NCBI GenBank assembly: GCA_903877645.1
Contig: CAIRES010000044.1
Span: 1-64,000, forward strand
DNA length: 64,000 bases
Direction of reading: 5' to 3'
Source of the DNA: an uncultured Bacteroidota bacterium
Lineage (GTDB): Bacteria > Bacteroidota > Bacteroidia > Chitinophagales > Chitinophagaceae
The position numbers and the translations under genes were made by a program. Shown here one piece after another: positions 1,390 through 10,837 of this stretch. A model generated the notes under the pieces. It saw only the letters and a program-made list of their open reading frames with translations. It was not told where the DNA came from and ran no database searches. Numbering within the stretch: position 1 is the stretch's first letter; every line of letters begins with the position of its first letter.

Positions 1390-1494
1390 TAACACATAGT
1401 TTATTAAGTGATCACTAAAACTGTTTTAATGAGACAAATAGGTACTTGTCATAGCAATAATTCATTGCATATTCCAAATGCAAACAAGTTGTTA

Positions 1495-4400
1495 ATGAAT
1501 ATAAAAAAGAAAGCAGTATTGCTATTGTTTTGTGTTACTGTAGTCTTTAGCCAAGCGAATGGGCAAGGGACCTGGAGAGCTGTGGCTACAACGGCGCCTC
1601 ACTATAATGCGGGTGTGATGCTGTTGCTTACCGATGGCACTGTGATCTGTAAAACATCATCTGGTGGCACCAGTGAAGGAACCCGGTGGGACCGGCTGAC
1701 CCCCGATATTCATGGCAGCTATATCAATGGCACATGGACAACCATAGCTGCGATGCATGATGAGCGTCTCTATTTTTCATCGCAGGTGCTGCCTGATGGC
1801 CGAGTGTACGTAGCCGGTGGCGAATATGGCGCTGGTGGCTATAAGAGTGAAGTATATGACCCGAAGACGAACGTATGGACGGCATGCCCGCCCATGCGCC
1901 CCGGCCCTTATTCATTTGATATCTCAGATGCCAATTCAGAAATACTTCCTGACGGCAAGATATTACAGGCAGTAGTAGATACAGGAGGGACGAGACTTAA
2001 TTTTATTTATGACCCGGCTACAAACACGTACTCATCTACAGCGAGTTGCCTGCGCGGCGATAATGAAGCGCCATGGCTGAAGCTACCAGATAACAGTATT
2101 ATATTCATTGATAACTACGGTACTACATCGGAGCGCTATATACCGGCAACTCATACCTGGATCAATGACGCAAATGTACCTGATGCGCTTTTTGACGCTT
2201 ATGGCTCAGAAGCCGGCGCTGCTTATTTGTTGCCCGACGGACGTTCTTATTTTATCGGATCGACGCCCAATTGCGCCTACTACACACCATCCGGTTCTAC
2301 AAGCCCCGGCACGTGGGCTGTAGCCCCGAATATGGACACCCTTGGAGCGCCTGACGCTGCTTCTGCAATGATGGTGAACGGCAGGATATTGATGGCGTTG
2401 TCGCACACACCTGTGGCCGGCGATAACTTCCCTGATACTACTTATTACTATGAATTCAATTACCTGAGCGGTACATATACGCAAGTAAGTGCCCCTGGTA
2501 CTGCTGCATTATTTCTTGAGAACTCTTCTTACATCTCCAATATGCTTTGCTTGCCGGATGGTACCATTTTGTATGCCAACCAGGGTGACGACCAGTATTA
2601 CGAATACACCCCCGGCAGCGCAGCTCTTGCAGTTGCAAAGCCTACGCTGGATTCAGTGATCAGGGTGAACTGCGATACATTTACTGCAACAGGTAAATTG
2701 TTCAACGGGATCAATGAGGGGGCAGCCTATGGCGATGACTGGCAGATGTCTACCAACTATCCGATCATCAGGCTGACATCAGGTACTAACGTTTATTATG
2801 CAACTACATACAAATGGAACAGGATAGGCGCAGTAATGACAGGGGCCTTGCCGGATACAACTACGTTTGTTCTCCCTGCGGGCCTGCCGGTAGGTACTTA
2901 TACTGTTCAGGTGGTGGTGAATGGTGTACCCTCTGCAACAGGGTATACGATCAATACCAGCACTGCCATAACGCCAACTTCAATAACTTTGTGCTCAGGT
3001 TATCAAACAACCTTTACCGATGCTTCTAACGGAGGTACGTGGACCAGCTCGGTTCCCGGTGTAGGAACAATTGACCCGGCAACAGGTGTATTCACGGCAA
3101 TAGGAGGTGGTACTACCAGCATAGTATACAACGTGGGGCCTACCTGCAACAGCTCTGCGTTAGTGAATGTTACCCCATCGCCATCGCCGATCTCGGGACC
3201 AAACAATGTATGTTTGAGTGGCACCATCGGGCTGATCGAATCATCAGGAGGTACGTGGAGCAGCGGCGCAACATTAACTGCTACGGTTGATCCGTTAGGA
3301 AATGTAACCGGATTAGCATCAGGCACAGCTAATATATCTTATACAGTAGGATTATGTGCCGCCATATACCCGGTTACCGTTAATGACTTGCCACCTGCTG
3401 CGATCGTTCCGGGAGGTACAGTGATCATCTGTTCGGGTTCCAGTACGTTGTTGAGCGCTAATACCGGGAGCGGATTAAGTTATGCATGGCAATTGGCCGG
3501 TTCTGCAATTACCGGCGCTACGAATGCTACTTTCTCAGCTACCGGCGGTAACTACACTGTTTTTGAAACCAATGCGGCAGGTTGTACCAATACATCTGCT
3601 GTCACTTTCGTATCGATAGGCACTCCACCAACGGCAGTGGCCACGGCTGCAGGCCCAACAACATTTTGTGCAGGTGGCAGTGTAGACCTGAATGCTACGG
3701 TTGTGGCCGGTTATACGTATCAATGGCAGGAGAGTGGTTCTGATATTCCCGGAGCTGTATCATCAACTTATACTGCGACAACATCGGGTAACTATGCGGT
3801 GGTAGCGACCAATCCTTCGTTGTGTACGGCTACATCATCTACAATAACGGTAACAGTTAGTTCTGCTCCCCCGGCTACCATCACACCGGGAGGCCCAACA
3901 ACCTTCTGCCTGCCAGGGAGTGTGGATCTTAATGCCAATACGGGCAGCGGCCTCACCTATCAATGGCAGAGAGGTGGTGCAGATATAACAGGCGCTACGG
4001 GTGCAACGTATACAACATCTACCAGTGGCGTGTATACGGTGAAAATATTTGTCGGTACCTGCTTCACAACCTCGTCAAGTGTGACTGTTGTTGCCAACTC
4101 TGCAAGCGCCGCGCCAATTAGTGGTGCAGCCCCGGTATGTATTGGCCAGACAGTGGCGCTGATCGATACCTCATCGGGTGGTACCTGGACCAGCAGTGAT
4201 ATTGCGACAGCGACTGTGAGTACCAGCGGTGTAGTGACCGGCCATGCGGCAGGTGCGGTTGTTATTTCTTACTCACTTTCTTCTACATGTGGTACCGGAC
4301 TTGCTACTATTACCCTTTCTGTGAACCCATCGCCGGTGGTGCCGCCGATAGGTGGTGCAGTTACGGTGTGTAGCGGCGGCAGTGTAACATTGACCGACGG

Positions 4401-5904
4401 CACTGCCGGTGGTGTATGGAGCAGCGGCACACCTGCTGTGGCTACGATCAGCACATCGGGCAGGGTGAGTGGTGTTACACTTGGCACATCTAATATCAGC
4501 TATGCAGTAACCAGCTCTGCGGGCTGTATCTCTCACGCAGTGTTGCCATTTACGGTATTCTCGCCATTCGCTGCCGCGGCGGTTGCCGAAGGGCCTACCA
4601 CTATATGCAGCGGTGCTTCTGTGTTACTTGGAGCTACGGCATATACGGGCTATACCTATCAATGGAAAATAGGCGGTGTGAATATACCGGGCGCCATTGC
4701 ATCGAGCTATACCGCAACGGGCGGGGGCAACTATACGGTGCTGATCACAGCGCCGGGTGGCTGCAATTCGGAATCAGCGGTGCTGACCATTAGTACAAGC
4801 ACGGGTACGGTAGTAGTACCGGCAGTAAGTGTTGCTGCCAGCCCCGGTGCGATACTTTGTGTTACATCTTCGCCTGTTACTTTTACGCCGATTCCTGTAA
4901 ACGGGGGTACTCCCTCATATACCTGGTATGTGAACCATGTGCCTGCAGGAACAGGAAGTACCTATAGCTATACCCCTGCATCGGGTGATATAGTGACCTG
5001 TACCATGACCAGCACTGCAACCTGTGCATTCCCGGTAACAGCTTCGGCAAGCCAAACAATGACCATCAGCCCGATGGAGGCTCCGGGTGTGAATGTAACG
5101 TCGACCAATGGCTTTACGGCCTGCAGTGGCAGAACAGACTCACTGGTGGCCACTCCTTTATTTGGTGGCGCTTCACCATCTTATGACTGGTTTATTAATG
5201 GTATCTATGTTCATTCAGGGGCGATCTATACCGGCCCTTATGCCAATGGTGATGTAGTGGTATGTAAAATGACCAGTGATTTCCCTTGCCTTACAACGGC
5301 ATTGGCTACCAGTGCAGCACATGTGATACATGTAGAGGCGGCGACTGTGAATACTGTAAGTATTTATGTATCTCAGTCGAGTATACTGTCGGGCAATGTA
5401 GATACGTTTGTGGTAGTTGCGCCTAATGCCGGTTCTACCCCTATCTATCAATGGCTGAAAAACGGGTTGCCAATATCCGGGGCCAATGCATCCATCTATG
5501 TAACAAGAACACTTGGTGCGGGTGATGTGATCAGTTGCAGGGTAACAAGCAGTGATGTATGTGCCACGCCAAGTACCGCAACCAGCGGCGGCATTACTGT
5601 AACCGTACACGCCAATGGTGTAGCGCAGATCTCTGAGCAGGGCAATACATTCGTATTAATGCCTAACCCGAACAAGGGTGAATTCACCATCAGCGGATCA
5701 TTAGCCGGCCAGGATAATGAGCAACTGAGCATAGTGGTAACGAATGTGCTGGGACAGACGATATACACAGGCAATACAACTTCGCAGAACGGCAAGGTTG
5801 ATGCAAGTGTAACGCTGGGCAGCACGGTAGCTAACGGTATGTATTTGGTAAGCCTAACATCAGGTAACGACCGCGTAGTATTCCATGTGGTGATCAACAG
5901 ATAA
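1495..5904 (+). CDS. Giant secreted Kelch/Ig-like protein with T9SS sorting domain
   Basis: About 1469 residues from ATG 1495, chosen because it starts a clean signal peptide (M-N-I-K-K-K then a hydrophobic stretch ending at ANGQ). Residues about 25-400 form a Kelch/galactose-oxidase-like propeller, with repeated L-P-D-G-R and Y-D-P-x-T-N-x-W turns. Then come about ten tandem Ig-like/Big_2-like modules, recognisable by repeated P-T-T-F-C, S-G-G-T-W-x-S and Y-Q-W-Q motifs. The last 80 residues (V-L-M-P-N-P-N-K-G-E-F to the end) are a type A T9SS C-terminal sorting domain. It is exported by Sec, moved across the outer membrane by T9SS and anchored or released at the surface; adhesion or polymer binding is an inference. 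A perfect hairpin terminator follows at once. Confidence 0.85.
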   Translation: MNIKKKAVLLLFCVTVVFSQANGQGTWRAVATTAPHYNAGVMLLLTDGTVICKTSSGGTSEGTRWDRLTPDIHGSYINGTWTTIAAMHDERLYFSSQVLPDGRVYVAGGEYGAGGYKSEVYDPKTNVWTACPPMRPGPYSFDISDANSEILPDGKILQAVVDTGGTRLNFIYDPATNTYSSTASCLRGDNEAPWLKLPDNSIIFIDNYGTTSERYIPATHTWINDANVPDALFDAYGSEAGAAYLLPDGRSYFIGSTPNCAYYTPSGSTSPGTWAVAPNMDTLGAPDAASAMMVNGRILMALSHTPVAGDNFPDTTYYYEFNYLSGTYTQVSAPGTAALFLENSSYISNMLCLPDGTILYANQGDDQYYEYTPGSAALAVAKPTLDSVIRVNCDTFTATGKLFNGINEGAAYGDDWQMSTNYPIIRLTSGTNVYYATTYKWNRIGAVMTGALPDTTTFVLPAGLPVGTYTVQVVVNGVPSATGYTINTSTAITPTSITLCSGYQTTFTDASNGGTWTSSVPGVGTIDPATGVFTAIGGGTTSIVYNVGPTCNSSALVNVTPSPSPISGPNNVCLSGTIGLIESSGGTWSSGATLTATVDPLGNVTGLASGTANISYTVGLCAAIYPVTVNDLPPAAIVPGGTVIICSGSSTLLSANTGSGLSYAWQLAGSAITGATNATFSATGGNYTVFETNAAGCTNTSAVTFVSIGTPPTAVATAAGPTTFCAGGSVDLNATVVAGYTYQWQESGSDIPGAVSSTYTATTSGNYAVVATNPSLCTATSSTITVTVSSAPPATITPGGPTTFCLPGSVDLNANTGSGLTYQWQRGGADITGATGATYTTSTSGVYTVKIFVGTCFTTSSSVTVVANSASAAPISGAAPVCIGQTVALIDTSSGGTWTSSDIATATVSTSGVVTGHAAGAVVISYSLSSTCGTGLATITLSVNPSPVVPPIGGAVTVCSGGSVTLTDGTAGGVWSSGTPAVATISTSGRVSGVTLGTSNISYAVTSSAGCISHAVLPFTVFSPFAAAAVAEGPTTICSGASVLLGATAYTGYTYQWKIGGVNIPGAIASSYTATGGGNYTVLITAPGGCNSESAVLTISTSTGTVVVPAVSVAASPGAILCVTSSPVTFTPIPVNGGTPSYTWYVNHVPAGTGSTYSYTPASGDIVTCTMTSTATCAFPVTASASQTMTISPMEAPGVNVTSTNGFTACSGRTDSLVATPLFGGASPSYDWFINGIYVHSGAIYTGPYANGDVVVCKMTSDFPCLTTALATSAAHVIHVEAATVNTVSIYVSQSSILSGNVDTFVVVAPNAGSTPIYQWLKNGLPISGANASIYVTRTLGAGDVISCRVTSSDVCATPSTATSGGITVTVHANGVAQISEQGNTFVLMPNPNKGEFTISGSLAGQDNEQLSIVVTNVLGQTIYTGNTTSQNGKVDASVTLGSTVANGMYLVSLTSGNDRVVFHVVINR

Positions 5905-7504: not shown

Positions 7505-8530
7505 TCACTCGCGCTCCTCCCTGAAGCGCATATCAAACAGAAAATCTTTGTCTGTGAGGGTTTTGAGGAATTCGATGATGTCTTTTTTGTCCTGTAGGGA
7601 AAGCACCATGGGTTTCCTGAATTCTTTGGCGAGGGTGGGGCTTTGCACTATCGTATTGGTATAATGATCGAGTACCTGCAGGAGTGTGCGGAAGCGGCCA
7701 TCGTGCATATATGGGTAAGACATGGCCACATTGCGCAGGGAAGGTACTTTGAATTTGAGGGAGTCTTGCGGGTCTTGTGTGATGCCCATGCGGCCGTAGT
7801 CTTTTAGTTCGGTGTCTAAAGAAAGCCCCACATTCTGGAAGGAGTAGTTGGTGAAAAGTGGCTCGTTGTGGCACGACTCACAGTTTTTGCGAAAGAGCTT
7901 AAGGCCGTTCAGTTCCTGTTCGGTCATTTCGCCGCCGGGCTCGTGGCGGGTGTATTTGTCGTACTTAGAGTTGAAGGACTCGAACATAACGGTGAACTGC
8001 GCCAGCGCTTTGAGCACATGCTGGCCGGTGATGGCGCTATCGCCGAAGGCGAGGTAGAAGCGGGCACGGTAGCCTTTGGCGGTGTCTAATTTCTTCACTA
8101 CATTCTCCAGTGTGTTGCCCATCTCTACGGGATTGGTGATGGGGCCGAGTGGCTGCACCTCGAGGTGGTTGATGCCGCCATCCCACATGAACGACTTGTT
8201 CCATGCCAGGTTGAAAAGCGTGAGGGAATTGCGCTTGCCTTTCAATCCATTGATGCCATGACTGAGGCCATGATCTACATGGGTGAACGCACTCCACTGC
8301 GTGTGGCAACTGGCGCACGAGGTAGAGCCATCGCGCGAGAGGATGGGGTCGAAGAATAGCTTGCGGCCCAGCTTAAAGCCGTCAACGGTTATTTTGTTTT
8401 TAGAGAAGTCGTACACAGGTTTGGGCCAGCCATCGGGGCGAACGAATCGGATGTCTTCGGGCTTTATATCGAACCCGAAGGCACAGTAGAGGATGAGTGC
8501 GCCCAGGCAGGCTGTGACCAGGTACTTCAT
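7505..8530 (-). CDS. mbnH: MbnH-type diheme cytochrome (MauG/cytochrome c peroxidase family)
   Basis: 341 residues with an N-terminal signal peptide. Two heme c motifs are present, CASCH (72-76) and CESCH (217-221), in the two-domain layout of bacterial diheme peroxidases. Other family marks are F-x-x-P-I-L-S-R-D-G-S-T-S-C, the segment F-M-W-D-G-G-I-x-x-L-E-x-Q and P-Y-M-H-D-G-R-F (273-280). Within this superfamily, MbnH oxidises a tryptophan of its partner MbnP to kynurenine, which creates a copper site. That assignment rests here on the partner: the start overlaps the mbnP stop by 4 bp (ATGA), so the two are translationally coupled. A plain hydrogen-peroxide-reducing cytochrome c peroxidase is the alternative. 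Confidence 0.8.
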   Translation of the reverse strand: MKYLVTACLGALILYCAFGFDIKPEDIRFVRPDGWPKPVYDFSKNKITVDGFKLGRKLFFDPILSRDGSTSCASCHTQWSAFTHVDHGLSHGINGLKGKRNSLTLFNLAWNKSFMWDGGINHLEVQPLGPITNPVEMGNTLENVVKKLDTAKGYRARFYLAFGDSAITGQHVLKALAQFTVMFESFNSKYDKYTRHEPGGEMTEQELNGLKLFRKNCESCHNEPLFTNYSFQNVGLSLDTELKDYGRMGITQDPQDSLKFKVPSLRNVAMSYPYMHDGRFRTLLQVLDHYTNTIVQSPTLAKEFRKPMVLSLQDKKDIIEFLKTLTDKDFLFDMRFREERE

Positions 8531-9282
8531 TTGTGAATGAGTGGGATTTGTACCTCTTTATCTAATGAGTACATCTTTGCGTAATTGTCGGCCATGGCAG
8601 CGGCATCTTTGCCGGGTATCACTATGCTATTGACTTTCGCAAGGCTGGTAGTGAGCCAGGCTGCCACGTCTGCTTTGATGCGGACGGTATTGCGGGTATC
8701 GTGGTCAACGATCATCGCGCGGGGCAGGGCTATTGCTATATTGCGGGCGGCATTGTACGGTGGCATATAGCCTCCAATATGAAATTCAAAAGCGTGGTGC
8801 AGGGTTTTGCATACGTTGCTGTGCCCTTCCAATTTGGCCATGATGTAGCCGGTGTTCCATGCCCAATACATGCCCATAGCGGGGTCGAGGTCGCCGCCAT
8901 TAGCGCCGGAGGTGTTTTCAAAGCTATCTACCCCTGCGGTGAAGTTGAAGGTGCTGTAAGTACCTGCGGGTATTTTCACTGAGAAAGAAAGTGTGTTTTT
9001 ATCTTCGGCATCCACCAGGTGGCTGTAGCCTGCCAGCACAAAAGTAGTATCTCCCCTTAAATCAAAATCCAGATCCGTCATATAAAAGCGAAAGAGATCG
9101 ATGTAGAGCGTATCGCCGAAATTATCTACGTATGACTTATCCGATAGTTGCAGCGGCTGATCGCCGAACATAGGCTCAATGACAATAGTGATGATGCCGG
9201 AATCGCTTGCGGGCGTAGCCATGCCATACGCAGGTAGCAATAGGGTAGCCAGCAACAGGGATAGCCGCACAAAATAGTTCAT
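8527..9282 (-). CDS. mbnP: MbnP family copper-binding periplasmic protein
   Basis: 251 residues with a signal peptide ending near YGMA. It shows the MbnP pattern: a beta-rich domain with D-T-L-Y-I-D-L-F-R-F-Y (57-67), G-Y-S-H-L-V-D (85-91), G-D-L-D-P-A-M-G-M-Y-W-A-W (130-142) and a His-rich segment L-H-H-A-F-E-F-H (161-168). Family knowledge: MbnP binds copper after a Trp is converted to kynurenine by MbnH. Trp140 and Trp142 are the obvious candidate residues, and His88, His154, His162, His163 and His168 candidate ligands (inference). It lies 18 bp after the CnrX-like gene and overlaps mbnH, so the pair sits at the end of a sigma-factor operon. Confidence 0.8.
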   Translation of the reverse strand: MNYFVRLSLLLATLLLPAYGMATPASDSGIITIVIEPMFGDQPLQLSDKSYVDNFGDTLYIDLFRFYMTDLDFDLRGDTTFVLAGYSHLVDAEDKNTLSFSVKIPAGTYSTFNFTAGVDSFENTSGANGGDLDPAMGMYWAWNTGYIMAKLEGHSNVCKTLHHAFEFHIGGYMPPYNAARNIAIALPRAMIVDHDTRNTVRIKADVAAWLTTSLAKVNSIVIPGKDAAAMADNYAKMYSLDKEVQIPLIHK

Positions 9283-9300
9283 GTCACGAAATTAAGGATT

Positions 9301-9858
9301 TTACTGACCATTAGGTGACGGGCCATTTCTATCGGGAGGCGGGGCATCACCCGGTGGAGGTGGGCCATCTTCGCGAGGCGGCCTTCCTTCGCCCGGCGGC
9401 GGGCCTGGGTGCGGGCCGTTCATCCTTTTCATCACATCGGCGATGATATTGTCGAATTCTGCTTTTTGCGGCTCTGTGCATAATGCCCGTACTGCTGCAA
9501 AATGCAGGTAAGTGACCATTTCCACCTGCTTCTGGTTGTTGCCGATAAGTTGGGCTATCGAATCAGCGGCATGGGTATCGTTGGTTTTGAAATTGGCAAA
9601 TAGCAGTGTGTGGTACCGGGCAGATTCTTCCCTCAACTGCCTCATAGCTTTTTGGTGGTCGCTGACGAGTAAATCATATTTCTTCACCTGGTCCTCAGTG
9701 AATTTGAGGCTGCGGATCACATAATCGTGCGGCGTTTCGCCACGTGGCGGGCCCATATGCAGCGGCCGTAGCCATATTGTAACGATAAGGCCAATATTGC
9801 AGAGTACGAGCAGCAGAACCGCCCATTGCCATATCCGTGTGCTTTTATTCTGGTCCAT
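9301..9858 (-). CDS. CnrX/Spy-like periplasmic heavy-metal sensor protein
   Basis: 185 residues: one N-terminal membrane helix (about 11-30), then an all-helical periplasmic domain (about 40-146) and a Pro/Gly/Asp-rich tail (147-185). The helical hairpin with repeated K-F-T-E-D-Q, D-H-Q-K-A-M-R-Q-L-R-E-E and F-D-N-I-I-A-D-V-M-K-R-M is that of the CnrX/ZraP/Spy group of metal sensors and chaperones. Possible metal ligands are His34, His44, His68, Met72, His83, His96, Met114, His119 and Cys127. Only 2 bp separate it from the anti-sigma-like gene and 18 bp from mbnP, so it is translated in one unit with both. Role inferred: it senses a periplasmic metal and controls the membrane anti-sigma protein. 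A general folding chaperone is the alternative. Confidence 0.7.
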   Translation of the reverse strand: MDQNKSTRIWQWAVLLLVLCNIGLIVTIWLRPLHMGPPRGETPHDYVIRSLKFTEDQVKKYDLLVSDHQKAMRQLREESARYHTLLFANFKTNDTHAADSIAQLIGNNQKQVEMVTYLHFAAVRALCTEPQKAEFDNIIADVMKRMNGPHPGPPPGEGRPPREDGPPPPGDAPPPDRNGPSPNGQ

Positions 9859-9860
9859 GA

Positions 9861-10154
9861 TCAGTAATTATAAATAGTTTGAGATGGGATATCTGTTGCC
9901 AACGGGTTTTGGGTTGAGTTAGCTGCACTATGTTTGCCTTCGGTCGCATACAGAACGGAGCCGATATTTACCGCCAGCAGTAAGATGGCAGCAGCAGCCC
10001 ATTTTATGGGAAAAGGAATAGTCTTTTTTCCTGTGTTCGAATGGAGTTTGGCCCCGATGTCCTGCATAAAACCGGGACCGGGTTGTGCGCGTTGCACTCC
10101 CTGTGTGCTGCCCAGCACTTCATCTATCCACTGTTCTTTATGGTTATTTTCCAT
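9861..10154 (-). CDS. Small single-pass membrane protein, probable anti-sigma factor
   Basis: 97 residues from ATG 10154 (a GTG lies directly before it). A cytoplasmic N-terminus of about 50 residues begins E-Q-W-I-D-E-V-L-G-S, as in short Bacteroidota anti-sigma proteins. It is followed by K-W-A-A-A-A-I-L-L-L-A-V-N-I-G as one membrane helix and a short outer tail. Size and layout resemble CnrY, which holds the ECF factor CnrH at the membrane. The start overlaps the end of the ECF sigma gene by 11 bp. The anti-sigma function is inferred from topology and position; no conserved zinc motif is present. Confidence 0.65.
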   Translation of the reverse strand: MENNHKEQWIDEVLGSTQGVQRAQPGPGFMQDIGAKLHSNTGKKTIPFPIKWAAAAILLLAVNIGSVLYATEGKHSAANSTQNPLATDIPSQTIYNY

Positions 10155-10791
10155 CACCTATATTTTTAGACGTTACTTCATTCATTTTCCTTCGGTCATA
10201 GACATCTGCCAATTTTTTCCTCAGGTTAACTTTTGCCCTTTGTAGCAATGATTCTACTGCCTTTACAGACATATTCATAATGTCGGCTATGTCTTTTTGG
10301 GGTAATTCTTCGATGTGGGCGAGTATAAATGCAGTTTTTTGGGTGTCGGGCAGGGTTTCAATGGCCTCGAACAGGTAACGGGCGTTTTCTTTCTGTTCCA
10401 GTTTTATGCCGGGATGATCAAAGACGGGCTGATCGTACATGGGTTGCTCCTCTTTAGTGAACAGCATATTGAGGAAGCCGCTTCGTTTTTGGCGGTTTTT
10501 TGCTCGAAGGTGATCAAGACATTTATTGACAGTGATGCGGTATATCCATGTAGATATTGACGACCGCTCATTAAAGGACAGCACGGACTTGAATACCGTC
10601 ACAAATACCTCCTGCGCTATATCCTCGGCCAGGCCGTGGTCCTGCAGCATGCTGATGGCGGTATTGAATACCTTCGCCCGGTAGTCGTCTACCAGTGTTC
10701 GGAAGGCATCCTGATCGCCAGCCCTGAGCCGTGCAAGAAAGTTATTGATAGTGTATGATTTGCCTCTAATATACAGATTTGCGAACAGCAC
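10144..10791 (-). CDS. ECF-family RNA polymerase sigma factor
   Basis: Region 2 is plain (D-A-F-R-T-L-V-D-D-Y, E-D-I-A-Q-E-V-F-V-T-V-F, S-T-W-I-Y-R-I-T-V-N-K-C-L-D). Region 4 follows, with L-P-D-T-Q-K-T-A-F-I-L-A-H-I-E and the helix-turn-helix L-P-Q-K-D-I-A-D-I-M-N-M-S-V-K-A-V-E-S. The start is uncertain. The only upstream ATG (10833) lies inside the terminator hairpin of the preceding gene, and no ATG follows until region 2. GTG at 10791 is given; an ATT at 10770 would match the usual family N-terminus better. It heads an operon with an anti-sigma-like protein, a CnrX-like protein, MbnP and MbnH, so it probably drives its own operon in response to a periplasmic signal. Confidence 0.85.
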   Translation of the reverse strand: MLFANLYIRGKSYTINNFLARLRAGDQDAFRTLVDDYRAKVFNTAISMLQDHGLAEDIAQEVFVTVFKSVLSFNERSSISTWIYRITVNKCLDHLRAKNRQKRSGFLNMLFTKEEQPMYDQPVFDHPGIKLEQKENARYLFEAIETLPDTQKTAFILAHIEELPQKDIADIMNMSVKAVESLLQRAKVNLRKKLADVYDRRKMNEVTSKNIGDGK

Positions 10792-10805: not shown

Positions 10806-10837
10806 AAAAATGGCTGCCGGAGTGGGCAGCCATTTTT
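10806..10837 (-). terminator. Intrinsic terminator of the LolA-like gene
   Basis: A 13-bp perfect stem (AAAAATGGCTGCC, 10806-10818, with its complement at 10825-10837) and a GGAGTG loop lie 20 bp past the stop of the minus-strand gene at 10857-11630. The minus strand continues in T-rich sequence. It separates that gene from the sigma-factor operon. Confidence 0.85.

Follow-up and report, generated by a model that had tools for sequence, protein, structure and literature searches.

Why should an extracytoplasmic function (ECF) sigma factor, a small anti-sigma-like membrane protein and a sensor resembling the metal sensor CnrX be encoded together with a copper protein and its maturation enzyme? 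This question is raised by five genes in a 64,000-nucleotide stretch of DNA (the window) from an uncultured Bacteroidota bacterium of the Chitinophagaceae (contig CAIRES010000044.1, positions 1 to 64,000). According to the open reading frames (ORFs) of the window, the genes form one tight unit on the minus strand (10791-7505) in the order sigma factor, anti-sigma-like protein, sensor (together called the trio below), MbnP and MbnH. The answer that we favour, with slightly better than even confidence, is that a transmembrane sigma switch would respond to a metal in the periplasm, with copper as the likeliest candidate, and would direct the synthesis of a copper protein and of the enzyme that matures it. 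The features of the locus are:

10144 to 10791 (or 10845), minus strand: ECF sigma factor, PF04542 with 62.4 bits and PF08281 with 58.3 bits, above cut-off.
10749 to 10747 (ATC), minus strand: at or near this codon, likelier start of the sigma factor, 201 residues, from comparison with 21 same-genus relatives.
9861 to 10157, minus strand: anti-sigma-like protein, 98 residues from a GTG or 97 from the ATG at 10154, one transmembrane helix.
9301 to 9858, minus strand: predicted membrane-anchored sensor of the CnrX/Spy fold, 185 residues with a Pro-rich tail (AlphaFold2 model and Foldseek).
8527 to 9282, minus strand: MbnP, 251 residues, PF20243, WxW motif at W140/W142.
7505 to 8530, minus strand: MbnH, di-haem MauG-like enzyme, 341 residues, CxxCH at 72 and 217, Tyr290.
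10766 to 10773, minus strand: possible promoter element TATATTAG, seen by eye in aligned upstream sequences.
10806 to 10837, minus strand: terminator-like stem-loop of 13 pairs followed by a T-rich tail, closing the upstream gene.

From the sigma gene to mbnH, successive junctions are a 14-bp overlap, a 2-bp gap, an 18-bp gap and a 4-bp overlap. ORFs and junctions thus agree with an earlier note on this DNA, which had described five genes in one minus-strand unit with overlaps or gaps of at most 18 bp, and the roles that it gave to the five genes were borne out. Its 97-residue anti-sigma holds for a start at the ATG at 10154, whereas the GTG at 10157 gives 98 residues. The stem at 10837-10806 sets the five-gene unit apart from the upstream gene; the scan that gave it found 13 terminator-like sites in comparison to 7.0 expected in shuffles, and sigma-70-type promoters were not in excess in the same scan.

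The whole unit with the same flanks is present in a same-genus genome (G097). A search with an alignment of three sensors was positive for 33 of 35 genomes of the genus and for 81 of 147 family genomes (90 family matches listed). Neighbourhoods were read for each of the 33 same-genus loci, which comprise the window, L063 and 31 further regions, and for the top 52 of the 90 matches in the family. Near the sensor, a sigma gene was found in 76 and an anti-sigma gene in 81 of 83 loci. Within the genus mbnP is the next gene after the sensor at 18 of the 33 loci, with all five genes visible in 16 of these 18, and the contig ends at the sensor in 3 of the 33. The family sample contains the sensor-mbnP junction in at least 9 of 147 genomes, eight identified by neighbourhood and one (G115) by coordinates only; in one of the eight, G079, a YHYH gene lies between sensor and mbnP.

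Named genomes were scanned with an alignment of window-type MbnPs, and the best 80 of 423 relatives were evaluated, some of which had already been counted in the genus (e.g., L217 and L219, apparently G155 and G097). The sensor is located directly upstream of mbnP in 39 of these 80 loci; 34 loci contain the complete five-gene set, which is followed by a YHYH gene in 20 of them. Among the linked loci sigma was undetected in four and mbnH in one; three of the unlinked loci do not reach far enough upstream for a decision. Among the named hosts are Flavobacterium psychrotolerans, F. swingsii, F. amnicola and F. lotistagni. When 247 genomes were sampled evenly across the phylum, the sensor profile matched 99 and MbnP 67, and the two genes are adjacent in five genomes from five families. 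The earlier note had named a lack of conserved linkage in related genomes as a finding that would refute its circuit; the linkage is in fact conserved in the genus, among named genomes and in the phylum sample. Because it is conserved across relatives, the arrangement is more than chance.

A quick tree was calculated from 130 MbnPs, 57 of them linked to a sensor, with linked rows enriched by the mode of fetching; rows identical in their final 150 residues, MbnP fragments no longer than 200 residues and the loci L215, L251 and L254, in which the upstream sequence is too short, were left out. In this tree 56 linked MbnPs fall into one group of 76 with a support of 98 in the approximate likelihood ratio test (SH-aLRT). 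The remaining linked MbnP, that of G079, pairs with the window genome's second, unlinked MbnP. The linkage label changes 13 times on the tree, seven of these changes being forced by well-supported branches, compared to a mean of 42.4 for shuffled labels; gain and loss are not separable in these counts. We infer one old linkage with losses, together with a separate coupling in G079. One record in the analysis, titled as a Bifidobacterium breve metagenome-assembled genome (L278), has an MbnP that groups with Flavobacteriaceae and is probably mislabelled.

What the sensor looks like was addressed with a structure prediction. Its AlphaFold2 model (pLDDT 86.9) has a transmembrane helix at residues 3-30, helices at 43-51, 55-90, 95-126 and 129-147 and the Pro-rich tail. 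When this model was compared to the PDB with Foldseek, CnrX took 14 of the top 18 ranks (TMt 0.70-0.79 at prob 1.00, best E 0.007); the other ranks include NccX and a Salmonella VirG-like protein, and CpxP and ZraP were far lower. Model and Foldseek result back the membrane-anchored CnrX/Spy-like sensor that had been proposed in the earlier note. Aligning the sensor with CnrX of plasmid pMOL28 by hhalign (E 5.6e-5, probability 66) placed window H119 on CnrX H119, V123 on M123 and V65 on E63, with H68 three residues past V65. Among 116 sensors, N21 and Q57 are invariant, and Q131 (115), H119 (113), C127 (104) and H68 (102) are conserved. N21 is located in the membrane helix, and the anti-sigma-like protein likewise has a near-invariant Asn in its membrane helix (Asn64, 111 of 114 homologues); its Tyr96 is Tyr in 100 of the 114.

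The sigma protein is above the Pfam cut-off for both Sigma70_r2 and Sigma70_r4_2, and it is 25% identical to CnrH over 178 positions (pair E 6e-13), a likeness usual among ECF factors. The anti-sigma-like protein has no Pfam match at E up to 1, and its anti-sigma role is suggested by size, topology and position. Its model (pLDDT 76.3, pTM 0.31) contains cytoplasmic helices at 5-18 and 30-40, a transmembrane helix at 51-79 and a short tail. In class II anti-sigma factors, two helices of CnrY wrap CnrH, according to PMC7406223. The modelled window protein resembles this class in having two short cytoplasmic helices followed by one transmembrane helix (pTM 0.31), whereas no sequence likeness to CnrY was found.

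The two downstream genes can be assigned to the MbnP/MbnH pair as previously proposed, since the diagnostic WxW, CxxCH and Tyr residues are present. MbnP matches PF20243 with 142.5 bits (cut-off 27) and MbnH matches CCP_MauG (PF03150) with 181.1 bits (cut-off 25.6). All 28 aligned MbnPs share W140, W142 and H168. MbnH has two CxxCH motifs (residues 72 and 217) and a MauG-type Tyr290, which is Tyr in 96 of 100 aligned proteins (some genomes occur twice in this alignment, and four rows come from loci without mbnP). The MauG-type Tyr is a haem ligand. MbnH matches the di-haem enzyme 6e1c, which we take to be MbnH, with E 1.4e-36, and Tyr290 is aligned with a Tyr of 6e1c and a Met of 1iqc. For MbnP, no solved relative was found in the PDB with profile A4 at E up to 10 or with the single protein at E up to 0.1. 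Like the known pairs (TIGR04052, TIGR04039, PF20243), the window genes are adjacent and carry the WxW, the two CxxCH and the MauG-type Tyr. Unlike them, they stay below the NCBIfam cut-offs: TIGR04052 is the sole NCBIfam match of MbnP (27.7 of 140 bits) and TIGR04039 the top match of MbnH (211 of 362.85 bits), and a Flavobacterium relative is likewise below both. The window pair differs further in having no methanobactin genes seen beside it and in being preceded by the trio. The links of MbnPH to ECF factors that PMC3621798 describes are FecIR-like. The second mbnP-mbnH pair of the window genome (L064, 6313-9356) has no trio and is preceded by a YHYH gene with a secretion-tail domain.

How might these parts work together? 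The trio likely works like a CnrYXH-type switch, for which the structural support is fair and the genomic support good. The ECF sigma factor would be held by the two cytoplasmic helices of the small anti-sigma, and the CnrX-fold sensor would keep the anti-sigma inhibiting via the membrane helices, each with its near-invariant Asn, and via the Tyr-containing periplasmic end of the anti-sigma. Metal bound at His68/His119 of the sensor, perhaps with Cys127, would loosen this contact and free the sigma factor, which would then transcribe the operon including mbnP-mbnH. MbnH would oxidise a Trp of the MbnP WxW to kynurenine and complete the copper site; copper binding in an MbnP-type protein reportedly depends on kynurenine formation. 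We propose that, with this site completed, MbnP binds the very metal to which the sensor had responded.

A copper response is likely the best description of the function, and that excess rather than shortage is the trigger is likewise what we infer. With the opposite sign, a metal-free sensor would free the sigma factor and MbnP would serve as a high-affinity scavenger. This appears unlikely, as CnrX-type sensors are activated by bound metal and the unit contains no uptake receptor.

The case for copper comes mainly from neighbouring gene families. In five loci (L168, L169, L177, L182, L202) YHYH and SCO1/SenC genes take the place of mbnPH behind the trio, in four (L171, L172, L174, L205) the trio precedes a MauG-like gene without MbnP, and in Flavobacterium-type loci YHYH and one more MauG-like gene are frequently found downstream. 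Both SCO1 and MbnP belong to copper families. The signal might instead be zinc, nickel or cobalt, with mbnPH encoding a copper protein by descent only; the titles of the solved CnrX structures name Ni, Co, Zn or Cu, but the SCO1 and MbnPH neighbours point to copper and the unit has no exporter for Zn, Ni or Co, which makes this very improbable. The additional genes also render doubtful the description of the circuit as self-contained in the earlier note, since the loci of relatives also contain YHYH, SCO1 or one more di-haem enzyme and the trio often occurs without mbnPH.

Several observations weigh against a coupled copper switch, and the first of them concern the linkage. Within the genus the trio is present without mbnPH in 12 of 30 testable loci, of 40 family loci retrieved by their likeness to MbnP only 2 (L063 and L098) contain the trio, and the junction occurs in only 5 of the 67 MbnP-bearing phylum genomes. 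Most MbnPs of the family are unlinked to the trio. Could mbnPH then be a mere passenger behind a self-regulating trio, functionally uncoupled from it? The 12 same-genus trios, in six of which thymidylate kinase is the next gene, would fit this. Recurrence in five families of the even phylum sample, the very short junctions and the gathering of 56 of 57 linked MbnPs in one tree group speak for coupling, and a passenger role is hardly credible.

Further points of this kind come from the sensor. No Foldseek match reached an E of 0.001 or lower, and by sequence the best PDB match is the chaperone Spy (E 2e-5), which is thus nearer than CnrX; CnrX was not among the PDB sequence matches listed for query A3 (E up to 1) or query A8 (E up to 10). 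The Pfam families LTXXQ (PF07813, 21.4 of 24.3 bits) and Metal_resist (17.5 of 29.2 bits) both stay below cut-off. The CnrX metal ligands are H42, H46, E63, H119 and M123. In the sensors the position of M123 is V, I or L, that of E63 mostly I, R or K and that of H46 is I; at the H42 position the window sensor has His44, whereas most relatives have another residue, so that H119 alone of this set is kept across the homologues. H68 is present in 53 of 57 mbnP-linked and 49 of 59 unlinked sensors, and C127 in 54 of 57 and 50 of 59. Since linked and unlinked sensors differ little, the H68/H119/C127 site belongs to the trio and is no marker of mbnPH coupling.

The likeness to Spy suggests another signal. 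The sensor might read envelope misfolding or redox state, like Spy/CpxP or via its single conserved Cys, and mbnPH would be one of several envelope outputs. The LTXXQ-type sequence, the Spy match, Cys127 in 104 of 116 sensors and the MauG-like neighbours are consistent with this. Spy, CpxP and ZraP represent the wider fold and sequence family of the window sensor, which differs from them in its membrane anchor, its conserved H/H/C, the sigma and anti-sigma genes encoded beside it and its structural proximity to CnrX. In the structural comparison CnrX is preferred to CpxP, ZraP and Spy, and the two conserved His probably face each other in the hairpin, judging from their position in the model; we therefore regard misfolding or redox sensing as distinctly unlikely and retain metal sensing.

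The comparison with CnrYXH of Cupriavidus metallidurans (pMOL28; NccX is a relative) also has its limits. Both systems encode an ECF sigma factor, a small single-pass anti-sigma and an anchored sensor in one unit, and they share the sensor fold and the H119 position. The earlier note had equated order and sizes of the trio with CnrH-CnrY-CnrX. The sizes agree (191, 94 and 148 residues, about 201-215, 98 and 185 here); the order was rejected, the pMOL28 annotation being cnrY-cnrX-cnrH, in contrast to sigma, anti-sigma, sensor here. The M123, E63 and H46 positions are not kept in window-type sensors, and direct comparison detected no CnrY similarity in the anti-sigma-like protein. A profile search of the PDB did not recover CnrY and gave only chance-level matches, RsiW (E 1.2) among them. 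The output of CnrYXH is a resistance-nodulation-division (RND) nickel/cobalt pump, whereas here it would be mbnPH. By gene order and ligand set, the trio lies outside CnrYXH. On pMOL28 a short gene annotated as YHYH domain-containing adjoins cnrYXH (L295, 22905-23027).

The start of the sigma gene required a closer look. The earlier note had placed it at GTG 10791, which is doubtful because 18 of 21 same-genus sigma loci lack ATG, GTG or TTG at codons -30 to -20 before the VFNTA motif. All 18 (window, L063, L135-L139, L141, L142, L144-L147, L149-L152, L155) carry ATC, ATT or ATA at -28 to -26, and the other three (L140, L143, L154) kept a TTG at -28. A coding signal is visible from about -23 on (codon-position variation 0.405/0.160/0.592). 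Start-like codons are present further inside or outside this range at some loci; in the window, L146 and L155 such a codon lies further upstream at about -40. The sigma gene of the window type thus seems to be without a standard start codon. The conserved Ile may be a plain conserved residue rather than the start, as L140 and L143 have Ile besides TTG.

Does the sigma factor act on its own operon? By eye, TATATTAG has similar counterparts before the likely sigma start in several same-genus relatives, and we read it as a candidate promoter element against what we take to be the Bacteroidota -7 consensus. In Flavobacterium-type loci, the motif TTAAAC-N17-[GT]TCT is found 42-56 bases 5′ of sigma in 7 of 14 (L240, L242, L246, L248, L262, L272, L282), compared to 35 occurrences in 5600 control windows and 24 in 4200 shuffles. 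It is also present in L183, from the same family as the window, and L248 has a second copy at 8158, 51 bases 5′ of a MauG-like gene. The motif was chosen after viewing the Flavobacterium-type sequences, so only L183 and the second L248 copy are independent support. Two more sites with other spacing are located within the operons of L242 and L282. Upstream of the window sigma no TTAAAC-N15-19-[GT]TCT site was found, which again speaks against the switch as drawn, and autoregulation of the window operon is therefore not claimed.

The operon joins two things that are known separately, transmembrane sigma signalling of the CnrX type and the maturation of a copper site by MbnPH, and it is relevant to the question of how ECF factors are restrained in Bacteroidota. 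Class I anti-sigma domains are encoded near only 6% of Bacteroidetes ECFs in comparison to 32% on average, according to PMC7406223. It is possible, and we suggest it tentatively, that a widespread Bacteroidota ECF class exists, with a sensor/anti-sigma pair locked within the membrane by one conserved Asn per helix, a periplasmic His/His/Cys copper site of the sensor other than that of CnrX, and a post-translationally matured copper protein as the output of the trio, with YHYH, SCO1 and MauG-like partners; if true, such a class would account for some of the control that these factors seem to lack. Residues for testing are N21 and H68/H119/C127 of the sensor and N64 of the anti-sigma, and in the Flavobacterium hosts one could study the signal, the contact made by the anti-sigma and what MbnPH does in bacteria that produce no methanobactin. 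Among the publication titles listed in literature searches that covered mainly open-access papers, none describes the five-gene operon, and the accessible part of PMC9723704 contains no mention of copper.

Other genes are found around the trio. In the YHYH-bearing type of the same genus, FdhD and DUF7009 genes are located directly upstream of sigma (L165, 6887-8164, by Pfam; likewise L164, 213-1470, by N-terminus similarity). A 949-residue outer-membrane beta-barrel protein (PF14905) is encoded upstream of the trio in L203 (1135-3984), and several other loci have ORFs of similar size at the same place. In the window itself, a plus-strand ORF at 1408-5904 encodes 1498 residues with, as judged by eye, a Kelch-like-looking N-terminal stretch and many Ig-like repeats.

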